Shown here piece by piece: positions 15,314-24,296 of a stretch of 64,000 nucleotides of DNA (its first letter is position 1; each line of letters starts with the position of its first letter). The translations under genes and the position numbers were made by a program. A model generated the notes under the pieces. The model ran no database searches, was not told the DNA's origin, and saw nothing but the letters and a program-made list of their open reading frames with translations. Location of the stretch: contig CP072535.1 in assembly GCA_021730165.1 (NCBI GenBank), positions 575,798 through 639,797 on the forward strand, written 5' to 3'. The DNA comes from Candidatus Vesicomyidisocius sp. Pext_18_S21 (lineage in GTDB: Bacteria > Pseudomonadota > Gammaproteobacteria > PS1 > Pseudothioglobaceae).

Positions 15314-15704
15314 TTAATAAAAATAAAGACCTACTTTTAAGGATTTATCGCCTAAAAGTGAATGTAATAGTTGTTTATTGAAATCATGATAAATTTTTAT
15401 TAATAAGTGCTAAATCACTTTCTTAATATTTTACCAAAAGATTTAGGTATAAATTCTACTTTAGGTTGATATTAATCATAATTATTTAAGTTAATTCTAT
15501 TACTAGTTAATATCAATTAACCAATGTATTATCACTTTTAATACACTATTTTCTTACAAATAGAATACTTAAATATTAAAACATTTGAATATGGGGTTGT
15601 TAATCCTTTCAACCTCTCTGTCAACTAAGCGAAAAATTTACCAAAATTACAGGAAAAATCAAGTAGTAATGATAGATCAGAAAAACAGTAGTGCTAATTC
15701 AACT
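15314..15704 (-). pseudogene. recO: decayed recO (DNA repair protein RecO)
   Basis: RecO loads RecA with RecF and RecR in gap repair. Between era and pdxJ, exactly where recO normally lies, the minus strand still reads fragments of the protein. Near 15690-15590: SDLSLLLDFSCNFGKFFA, then stop, TERLKGLTTPYSNVL, matching the N-terminal OB-fold. At the 3' end, 15314-15370: LLHSLLGDKSLKVGLYFY then TAA, matching the RecO C-terminus (LG-K-LKSR). About 390 bp remain of a usual 700, with stops and frame changes. Both matching ends plus the position make the call strong. Confidence 0.82.
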
Positions 15705-16619: not shown

Positions 16620-17281
16620 GATTTTTTTAATTTCTTTAATAAGATTTGTGCACAAAATTGTTCTGCTTTTTTAATACTTTTAGCAGATTGCTTAACTTGT
16701 AGTTTTTGGTCTTCTAAAAAACAATTTACAATAAATATTGCATTATGATCTTTTCCTGTTGTATCAGTTAGTTCGTATTTTGGTAAAATATTACCACGTT
16801 TCTGTAGATATTCTTGTAATTGTGTCTTTGAATCTTTTAACGAATCATCTGGACTGATATTATTTAGTAAAACTTTAAAAAGACCTAAGATAACCGTATT
16901 AGTGGTTTCAAAATTTGAATCCAATAACACTGCACCAAATATTGCTTCTACAGTATCTGCTTGAATAGATTCACGCCTATAACCACCACTCTTTAACTCG
17001 CCAGAACCTAAAATCAAATTGTTTGATAGTTCTAATACAGTACCTAACTGTACCAAGGTTTGACCTCTAATTAAGTGTGACCTTAATCGAGAAAGTTTTC
17101 CTTCGTCAACACAAGGAAAACGCTGATAAAGTTCTTTTGAGATTGATATACCTAAAATACTATCACCTAAAAATTCTAAACGTTCATTATTGTTTCTTCC
17201 CATAGAACGGTGTGTTAATGCAAGTTTTAATAGAGACAAGTCTTTAAATTGATAATTAATTTTTTTTTGTAATTTTTTCAT
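16616..17281 (-). CDS. rnc: ribonuclease III
   Basis: RNase III cleaves double-stranded RNA and matures rRNA precursors. The 221-residue protein has the signature NERLEFLGDSILG with catalytic acidic residues, a second site ADTVEAIFGAV, and a C-terminal double-stranded RNA-binding domain (about 150-221, with KTQLQEYLQKRG). It overlaps era by four bases. It is head-to-head with the Cas6-like gene at 17352 across a gap of about 70 bp, so two RNA endonuclease genes are divergently arranged. Confidence 0.96.
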   Translation of the reverse strand: MKKLQKKINYQFKDLSLLKLALTHRSMGRNNNERLEFLGDSILGISISKELYQRFPCVDEGKLSRLRSHLIRGQTLVQLGTVLELSNNLILGSGELKSGGYRRESIQADTVEAIFGAVLLDSNFETTNTVILGLFKVLLNNISPDDSLKDSKTQLQEYLQKRGNILPKYELTDTTGKDHNAIFIVNCFLEDQKLQVKQSAKSIKKAEQFCAQILLKKLKKS

Positions 17282-17351: not shown

Positions 17352-18014
17352 ATGTTTTGGCAAGAAGAAGCTAAAAAAGAACATTTTACGCTGCCTGAAA
17401 CCATACAAGATGTAGTGTTTAATATCTTCTCTAATATTTTACCTATTGATCATAGTTTTTTACTAGAACAAGCGCTACTTAAACACTTACCATGGCTTAA
17501 TGAGGTAGATGCTGGTATCTTTAATATCAGTGTGGCTGATGGTAATGGTTGGGTGCAGAATCATAAAAACGGATTCTATTACCCTTCTAAACGCTCAAAA
17601 CTAATTATTAGATTGCCAAAAAATAAACTTAATGAAACAAAACAGCTACTTGGTAAAACGCTATATTTAGATAAATATAAAATAAAAATTATCAAATTTT
17701 TAAAACCTAAATTACTTAGTGATATACCTATACTATTTGCAAAAAAAATTGTCTGTAATGAAACAATGAGTGAAAATGATTTCTTACAAACTGCTTTTGA
17801 ACAATTAAAAACACTTGATATTTCTGTTAAGAAAATGATATCTGGTCTTAAAAATCACATTAAAACTGATACTCAGATTATTCATACCCGTTCTCTAATG
17901 GTGGCTGATCTAAAAAAATATGAATCAATAACACTACAAGAAAAAGGCCTTGGTAATTATCGATTATTAGGCTGTGGCTTATTTATTCCCCATAAAGATA
18001 TCACAAGCATATAA
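17352..18014 (+). CDS. orphan Cas6/Cmx6-like CRISPR RNA endonuclease family protein
   Basis: The 220-residue product resembles the Cas6/Cmx6 family named for the Myxococcus type I CRISPR system. Shared features as I recall them are the N-terminal MFWQEE, an early LPIDHSFLLEQAL block, GNGWVQ, the SKRSKLIIRLPK strand, TRSLMVADL and a C-terminal glycine-rich end GLGNYRLLGCGLFIPHK, the G-rich loop typical of RAMP-fold Cas6 proteins. I chose the ATG at 17352; an upstream in-frame start adds 13 residues that are less conserved in character. No other cas gene and no CRISPR array is visible, so it is an orphan. It faces rnc. Possible roles are processing of another RNA, or crRNA processing for an array elsewhere. 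The frame is clean, so it is probably under selection. Confidence 0.72.
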   Translation: MFWQEEAKKEHFTLPETIQDVVFNIFSNILPIDHSFLLEQALLKHLPWLNEVDAGIFNISVADGNGWVQNHKNGFYYPSKRSKLIIRLPKNKLNETKQLLGKTLYLDKYKIKIIKFLKPKLLSDIPILFAKKIVCNETMSENDFLQTAFEQLKTLDISVKKMISGLKNHIKTDTQIIHTRSLMVADLKKYESITLQEKGLGNYRLLGCGLFIPHKDITSI

Positions 18015-18113: not shown

Positions 18114-18257
18114 AGTTTATTTTATAAATTCTTTGAAGATTTAAAAAAGGAGATAGAGAATAATAATTATGTAATAATTTACTTTCATAAAGATGGTTAT
18201 TATTATTGTAATAAATTAATTAAAAATAACTTTTACAACATATTTTTATATTACTAA
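18114..18257 (+). pseudogene. relic of a thioredoxin-fold protein
   Basis: An open stretch of 47 codons reads FEDLKKEIENNNYVIIYFHK, then DGYYYCNKLIKNNF, ending at TAA 18255-18257. This resembles SoxW-like or other small periplasmic thioredoxins, whose active site here would be DGCxYCNKL. The first active-site cysteine appears changed to tyrosine (TGT to TAT), and no start codon, signal peptide or C-terminal half remains. The rest of the gap 18015-18427 between the Cas6-like gene and thyA shows no other feature. Confidence 0.6.
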
Positions 18258-18427
18258 ATTATAAAAAATTTAACGTTATTAGAAAAAAATATGCTAAATA
18301 AAATAGACTTAACTGATTAGTAATACAAAAAAATAATTCTCGACTCTAATAAAAGTATAATTCATCATCCCTTCTTATATTTATAAATTTAGTATACAAA
18401 ATATTACAATATATATTTATGAATGAT

Positions 18428-23969: not shown

Positions 23970-24296
23970 ATGATATTAGCTGATTTAGAAAGAGATAATA
24001 ATGGTTACCTAATAGATCTTAACGAATGGAATGAGAGCATTGCAGTAGAATTTTCAAAAGAAGAAGGAATTACCTTAACAGATGATAGCTTCAAATTAAT
24101 TAATTTTTTACGCAATGAATATATCAATAACAATGCTAACCAACCTAATGAACGTAATATGGTTAAAGGTTTAAAAGATGATTGGAAGGGTAAGTTAAGC
24201 ACTAAAGAATTATATGTATTATTTCCAAAAGGTCCTGCTAAGCAAGCAGGAAAAATTGCTGGACTACCTGAAACTAAACGAAAAGGTGGTTATTAA
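23970..24296 (+). CDS. DsrC/TusE-family protein lacking both redox cysteines
   Basis: DsrC carries sulfur as a trisulfide between its two C-terminal cysteines during dissimilatory sulfur metabolism; TusE is the tRNA-thiolation homologue. This 108-residue protein has the family fold: ending LFPKGPAKQAGKIAGLPET followed by KRKGGY. In DsrC the G in KQAG is a cysteine and the last-but-one residue is the second cysteine; both are absent here, so sulfur relay by the known mechanism is not possible. Similar cysteine-free paralogues occur in sulfur oxidisers and may be regulatory. I chose ATG 23970 because GGAGAAG precedes it; a TTG at 23955 is possible. Confidence 0.9.
   Translation: MILADLERDNNGYLIDLNEWNESIAVEFSKEEGITLTDDSFKLINFLRNEYINNNANQPNERNMVKGLKDDWKGKLSTKELYVLFPKGPAKQAGKIAGLPETKRKGGY

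Follow-up and report, generated by a model that had tools for sequence, protein, structure and literature searches.

Cas6 proteins are the processors of CRISPR RNA. Among described proteins, those closest to the one reported here are the type I-MYXAN Cas6/Cmx6 (TIGR02807) and the Cas6 of type I-B CAST (8fcj), which have their fold in common with the symbiont protein over nearly the whole chain, together with a DH motif and a glycine-rich loop. Unlike these, the symbiont protein is encoded without cas genes or an array, is linked to dsr genes, has no histidine at the LHE position, carries MFWxE near its N-terminus and an inserted GNGW, and falls in a separate group in phylogenetic analysis. The Cas6 of Sulfolobus solfataricus (Sso1437) likewise has the Cas6 fold without the usual catalytic histidine, but it serves CRISPR arrays and is distant in sequence. 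For the sulfur genes, the known reference is the reverse-Dsr operon dsrABEFHCMKLJOPNRS, which is adjoined in most Gammaproteobacteria examined by a module that contains none of the named dsr genes. One protein of this module belongs to the DsrC/TusE family (PF04358), as shown by its matches to PF04358 and TIGR03342. In the Solemya velum symbiont, dsrC homologues lying outside the dsr operon and lacking the two C-terminal cysteines have been noted (PMC4287430), in a text in which neither Cas6 nor CRISPR nor a Cas6-type neighbour appears.

The window analysed here is a stretch of 64,000 nucleotides (contig CP072535.1, positions 575,798 to 639,797 of the forward strand) from Candidatus Vesicomyidisocius sp. 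Pext_18_S21, a symbiont of the Vesicomyosocius lineage whose genome is complete (1,023,779 bases, no N) and whose closest named relative is Ca. Vesicomyosocius sp. Agig_15_S12 (96% identity). The Cas6-fold gene is an ORF of 220 codons on the forward strand, starting with the ATG at 17352. It diverges from rnc, which starts at 17281 on the opposite strand, with 70 bp between the two. The features referred to below are these, first in window coordinates and then by position in the symbiont genome:

17352..18014, + strand: Cas6-fold protein of the dsr-linked type, 220 aa (TIGR02807, PF09559, PADLOC Cas6; model Z 24.4 to 8fcj_B; dN/dS 0.11-0.26)
17451..17453, + strand: H34 (PxDH motif), which dsr-linked proteins (72/72 and 63/64) and most CRISPR-linked relatives conserve
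17499..17501, + strand: N50, at the LHE/LHD position, which is His in 6/8 CRISPR-linked relatives and in 8fcj, and in 0/67 dsr-linked proteins
17541..17552, + strand: GNGW insertion, residues 64-67, of which NGW does not vary within the main dsr-linked clade; low model confidence
17946..17999, + strand: C-terminal glycine-rich loop GLGNYRLLGCGLFIPHKD, nearly invariant in relatives
23970..24296, + strand: DsrC-family protein that has no cysteine at all and ends in KIAGLPETKRKGGY (PF04358 2e-28, TIGR03342 9e-25), about 6 kb from cas6
593 kb of the genome: cas6
823-829 kb of the genome: dsr genes
981 kb of the genome: genes for the 60-aa and ~240-aa proteins, adjoining
988 kb of the genome: dioxygenase gene

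The first-pass annotation, made from the window alone, had likened this ORF to the Cas6/Cmx6 family by its glycine-rich end and an RSLMVADL block, and had placed it opposite rnc across about 70 bp. The arrangement is as it described, and both sequence elements are present and nearly invariant among relatives, the loop following the pattern GxGxxRxxGCGxF. Profile searches agree with the family: the ORF narrowly passes the cut-off of the NCBIfam model TIGR02807 (102.9 bits against 98.85), passes that of PF09559 by a wide margin (151.6 bits against 26.7) and matches the PADLOC Cas6 model at 3e-62. Searched against solved structures as a single sequence, the protein finds one match, the type I-B CAST Cas6 8fcj_B (4e-5), and a profile built from 64 relatives finds the same structure again (9e-24), with similarity over the full length. 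The AlphaFold model (pLDDT 88.5, pTM 0.84) has the tandem fold that the annotation had proposed to look for, namely two ferredoxin-like RAMP domains, and superposes on 8fcj_B with an rmsd of 2.2 over 197 aligned residues; Cas6-type entries from P. furiosus follow at Z 14-16. There is good support for counting the ORF product as a true member of the Cas6 fold family.

No CRISPR system accompanies the gene. The full 1,023,779-base genome contains no CRISPR array (at least 3 repeat copies at CRISPR spacing), no Cas1 and no PF10040 Cas6, which confirms the earlier view of a lone gene; likewise, zero CRISPR proteins and zero CRISPR sites are recorded for Ca. V. okutanii and Ca. R. magnifica (PMC5361782). 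The gene could still be a CRISPR remnant, or a Cas6 serving arrays in trans, as the NCBI model name of the protein (type I-MYXAN Cas6/Cmx6) would suggest and as the presence of Cas1 somewhere in the genome of about half of the carriers checked (41/80) would allow. The other half of these carriers have no Cas1, however, and where Cas1 and the Cas6-like gene share a contig the closest pair is ~250 kb apart. In the symbiont's own genus, one intact copy of the Cas6-like gene is found in each of the 12 genomes searched, against any Cas1 match in only two, one of them broken. The dsr-linked proteins also group apart from CRISPR-linked Cas6 in the tree, and the only CRISPR-like copy found in Gammaproteobacteria belongs to a genome without dsrA. 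With neither array nor Cas1 in the symbiont, and no proximity to Cas1 in other genomes, we reject this explanation as very improbable. Since the dsr-linked protein passes the TIGR02807 cut-off, it would be automatically annotated as "type I-MYXAN CRISPR-associated protein Cas6/Cmx6" where there is no CRISPR at all, a naming that would distort CRISPR surveys of sulfur oxidizers.

What the gene does accompany is dsrA. Among 370 gammaproteobacterial genomes that are 90% complete or better, PF09559 is present in 128, nearly always in single copy, and dsrA (called as a strong match, E below 1e-50) in 125; 122 genomes have both genes, six cas6 only, three dsrA only and 239 neither (Fisher p 5e-86, a value that ignores phylogeny, although the carriers span many families). 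The same pattern holds within the symbiont's own order (46 with both, three with cas6 only, four with dsrA only, 30 with neither), where one genus (g5) without dsrA is also without cas6. Eight of the nine exceptions in the larger sample look like assembly gaps. Two of the three dsrA-only contigs stop 114 and 640 bases upstream of dsrA, and the third, which carries the dioxygenase gene and part of the ~240-aa gene, breaks off just where cas6 would come; in five of the six genomes with cas6 only, the gene has neighbours of the dsr type and the contig is short or terminal. The ninth exception looks like a CRISPR-like locus. This genome (G433, L250:3133-9274), without dsrA, has an apparent type I-MYXAN CRISPR locus, in which a regulator-like gene and Cas6 are followed by genes of 788 aa and 563 aa in the cas3/cmx8 position, as judged by size and order.

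Beyond this class, a phylum-wide sample of 299 genomes has PF09559 in only four, all of them Gammaproteobacteria with dsrA, and in none of 32 dsrA genomes of other classes. Three of these four carriers, which belong to other families, have cas6 divergent from dsrA with 435-615 bp between the profile matches. The cas6-like gene is therefore nothing peculiar to the symbiont: it occurs across the class and is bound up with the dsr locus for sulfur oxidation. The earlier description of an orphan in a reduced symbiont is too narrow, the same lone gene being found in 128/370 of the gammaproteobacterial genomes sampled. In the symbiont itself, dsrA lies at 828031-829293 of the genome, ~234 kb from cas6, so that the two are not physically linked; because the gene lies away from dsr throughout the symbiont's family, the dsr link could not be seen from the window. 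Linkage to dsrA, being the rule outside the family and broken in the symbiont, is thus a usual but not a required feature of the dsr-linked Cas6.

The usual layout outside the symbiont's own family has dsrABEFHCMK on one strand and a divergent module ~500 bp away, consisting in order of a TauD-type dioxygenase gene (PF02668), a gene for a 60-aa protein, an optional gene for a ~240-aa protein, cas6 and, after ~90 bp, a gene for a DsrC-family protein. Among 87 loci outside the family, a set in which some genomes are represented twice and some loci are cut by contig ends, dsrA or dsrB is on the same stretch as cas6 in 69, and in 74 the next recognised gene on the same strand after cas6 is dsrC-like. 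This cysteine-less DsrC, directly following cas6 in most other genomes of the class, is the one found about 6 kb away in the window. The module paralogue is a DsrC without the two catalytic cysteines, its C-terminus having forms like KIAGLPESxRKGGY in place of CKIAGLPKPTGCV; a cysteine in the last 25 residues is absent from 33/34 module paralogues and present in 25/25 operon DsrC proteins.

The 60-aa protein (980967-981146, - strand, in the symbiont genome) is conserved between the dioxygenase and cas6 in 77 loci and has no Pfam match. A conserved leader RNA had been considered for this gap of ~225 bp, and was rejected, as the gap encodes the 60-aa protein. The ~240-aa protein (980248-980997, - strand) is also conserved, its gene adjoining that of the 60-aa protein, and has no significant match in Pfam or NCBIfam. 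Across the symbiont's own order, both genes have the same distribution as dsrA. In one genome from another class of the phylum (G597, L262:7243-7501), a TauD-type dioxygenase gene is divergent from dsrA and there is no cas6 in the genome; it may be that the dioxygenase joined dsr before cas6 did.

The symbiont genome keeps all five parts of the module, partly scattered. This bears on the simplest account of the association, that the gene is passively carried along and kept solely through its linkage to dsr. Such hitch-hiking would fit the 69/87 linked loci, but in the symbiont's own family the linkage is broken and the gene and its partners are nevertheless kept in every searched genome of the genus. 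The retention of module parts after their dispersal argues against mere linkage, as does selection: in comparisons with ten relatives, the Cas6-like gene has a Nei-Gojobori dN/dS of 0.11-0.26, much as rnc and era do. The gene is not decaying and is under purifying selection, and we give passive carriage next to no credence.

None of the three outcomes that the first-pass annotation had named as contrary to its reading (no Cas6 or RAMP match, an array and cas operon in the genome, dN/dS near one) was encountered, and the role outside CRISPR that it had suggested is strongly indicated. In this symbiont the Cas6-fold protein functions independently of any CRISPR system, and it constantly accompanies the gammaproteobacterial reverse-Dsr (reverse-dissimilatory sulfite reductase) genes. 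We are nearly certain that the dsr-linked proteins constitute a Cas6-fold family distinct from CRISPR, and the protein appears to have settled into the gene set for sulfur oxidation as a permanent member that has gone undescribed so far. No description of a link between Cas6 and dsr was found in the open-access literature searched, and an earlier report in subscription papers is possible.

Intact cas6 has eroded genes on either side. A RecO-like gene, intact in 39 related loci, is reduced to fragments with an in-frame stop at 15317-15510 (- strand) of the window, between pdxJ and era and so beyond era and rnc as seen from cas6. Immediately next to cas6, a fragment with an in-frame stop at 18120-18317 (+ strand) is what is left of a ~343-aa gene that directly follows cas6 in 28 related loci. 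A functional tie between cas6 and rnc was also considered, and rejected, the proximity of the two being seen only in the symbiont's own family.

In the phylogenetic tree, 67 dsr-linked and eight CRISPR-type sequences are split by one branch with support of 98/91. The natural reading of this sequence comparison would be that the dsr-linked Cas6 was derived from CRISPR; because the CRISPR-type rows are only eight (including one, L258, without an adjacent cas3) and some branches are long, both the root and the direction of transfer are uncertain. A search with the single protein as query found no viral relatives, and its only plasmid match is CRISPR-linked.

By our reading of the alignment, N50 corresponds to the catalytic His46 of P. 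furiosus Cas6, and a histidine at this position is found in none of the 67 dsr-linked members, the three most basal ones included (two rows have a His one residue later). The RNA endonuclease named in the first-pass annotation is not supported, the canonical catalytic position never being a histidine in this group. This loss is no proof of inactivity, given that S. solfataricus Cas6 cleaves RNA without an active-site His (PMC3652601). The residues that are retained include H34 as well as R81, R87, K161, R180 and K215, the latter five being invariant or nearly so. In the AlphaFold model H34 stands where helix 1 begins, and in Cas6e and Cas6f this helix carries the catalytic His (PMC3652601). 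The derived dsr-linked clade has an invariant W in the N-terminal MFWxE as well as the GNGW insertion, two places at which the model has low confidence; the insertion is absent from CRISPR-linked and basal dsr-linked members.

We put at roughly 0.55 the probability of what we consider the best explanation, down to the level of RNA binding: that a co-opted Cas6 takes part in reverse-Dsr sulfur oxidation by binding or processing RNA, this RNA role being one that we infer. The protein would still bind RNA through its Cas6 surface, made up of the two ferredoxin-like domains, the glycine-rich loop and the five basic residues, and the invariance of the loop and these residues fits continued RNA binding. 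It probably acts in this way; that its target is a dsr or module transcript is plausible, at somewhat less than even odds. The transcript on which the protein would then act belongs to the sulfur-oxidation system, and the protein would either process it slowly, in a non-canonical way, or regulate it by binding without cleavage, both being proposed because the usual catalytic His position is lost, which speaks against ordinary Cas6 cleavage. The cysteine-less DsrC would be its likely partner or sulfur-state input, a partnership that we infer. A factor acting at the RNA level could explain why, in Allochromatium vinosum, dsrEFH and dsrC transcripts exceed those of dsrA (PMC3397948, citing Grimm 2010). 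Against this explanation, no RNA target was found, the dsr operons of other classes lack the gene, and cas6 lies away from dsr in the symbiont's own family.

Alternatively, RNA binding could have been lost and the Cas6 fold could now be a protein scaffold or maturation factor for Dsr or sulfur-carrier proteins. The lost catalytic position would fit, all partners are sulfur-metabolism-like or metabolic proteins, and the invariant MFWxE and GNGW insertion gained by the derived clade, disordered in the model, are what would be expected of a docking site; the RNA-gripping glycine-rich loop and the basic residues nevertheless stay invariant, and we hold the scaffold to be unlikely.

In its fullest form, the RNA-binding explanation would amount to a dedicated RNA-level control in gammaproteobacterial sulfur oxidizers, with a CRISPR-derived Cas6 binding or processing dsr transcripts under the control of a cysteine-less DsrC sensing the status of the sulfur-carrier system, and with the TauD-type dioxygenase and the 60-aa protein as further parts. 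We offer this tentatively. If true, a domesticated CRISPR RNA-binding protein would be fixed in core energy metabolism; a Cas6 lineage fixed with reverse-Dsr and kept even in 1-Mb symbionts would show clearly that a CRISPR-type protein can serve energy metabolism. The module also points to uncharacterized conserved parts of a major sulfur-oxidation pathway, namely the Cas6-like, cysteine-less DsrC, 60-aa, dioxygenase and ~240-aa proteins.

A more specific possibility is an active endoribonuclease that cuts the polycistronic dsr transcript at intergenic stem-loops and so sets the DsrAB:DsrEFH:DsrC ratio, with H34 or basic residues replacing the usual histidine. Many dsr loci (for example L219, L225 and L123) do have strong G+C-rich hairpins between dsrC and dsrM and between dsrA and dsrB, with a median folding z of -2.9 for the dsrC-dsrM gap relative to mononucleotide shuffles, a weaker control than dinucleotide shuffles. 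The unequal dsrA and dsrC/dsrEFH transcripts of A. vinosum would be accounted for, and both the His-independent cleavage by S. solfataricus Cas6 and the location of H34 on the catalytic-His helix of Cas6e and Cas6f speak for the idea. Similar hairpins are, however, present in some operons without cas6, no clear common motif was found among the intergenic hairpins, and the symbiont's own dsrC-dsrM hairpin is weak (z -0.8); such an enzyme seems unlikely. As specific substrates the dsrA-dsrB and dsrC-dsrM hairpins are doubtful, being strong yet without a common motif and not limited to cas6 carriers; they are possibly mRNA processing or stability signals.

A palindrome, TATCCC-N4-GGGATA, was observed upstream of dsrA, the symbiont copy being at 829439 of the genome. 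Searched with up to 2 changes allowed in the dsrA upstream regions of 73 loci, it is found in 41/53 distinct regions outside the symbiont's family (0.8 expected), at a median of 231 nt upstream of dsrA, in 20/20 regions of the family (0.6 expected) and in 0/17 cas6-less dsr operons of other classes, so that its presence follows class as much as cas6. RNAalifold found no structure in the dsrA upstream regions. The palindrome was rejected as an RNA hairpin: it is absent near cas6 in the symbiont's own family, and most of its changes fall on one side only, breaking pairs (pair 3 is paired in 36/46 distinct motifs). One-sided changes make a DNA operator likelier than an RNA stem, and the palindrome is probably a DNA operator of the dsr operon.
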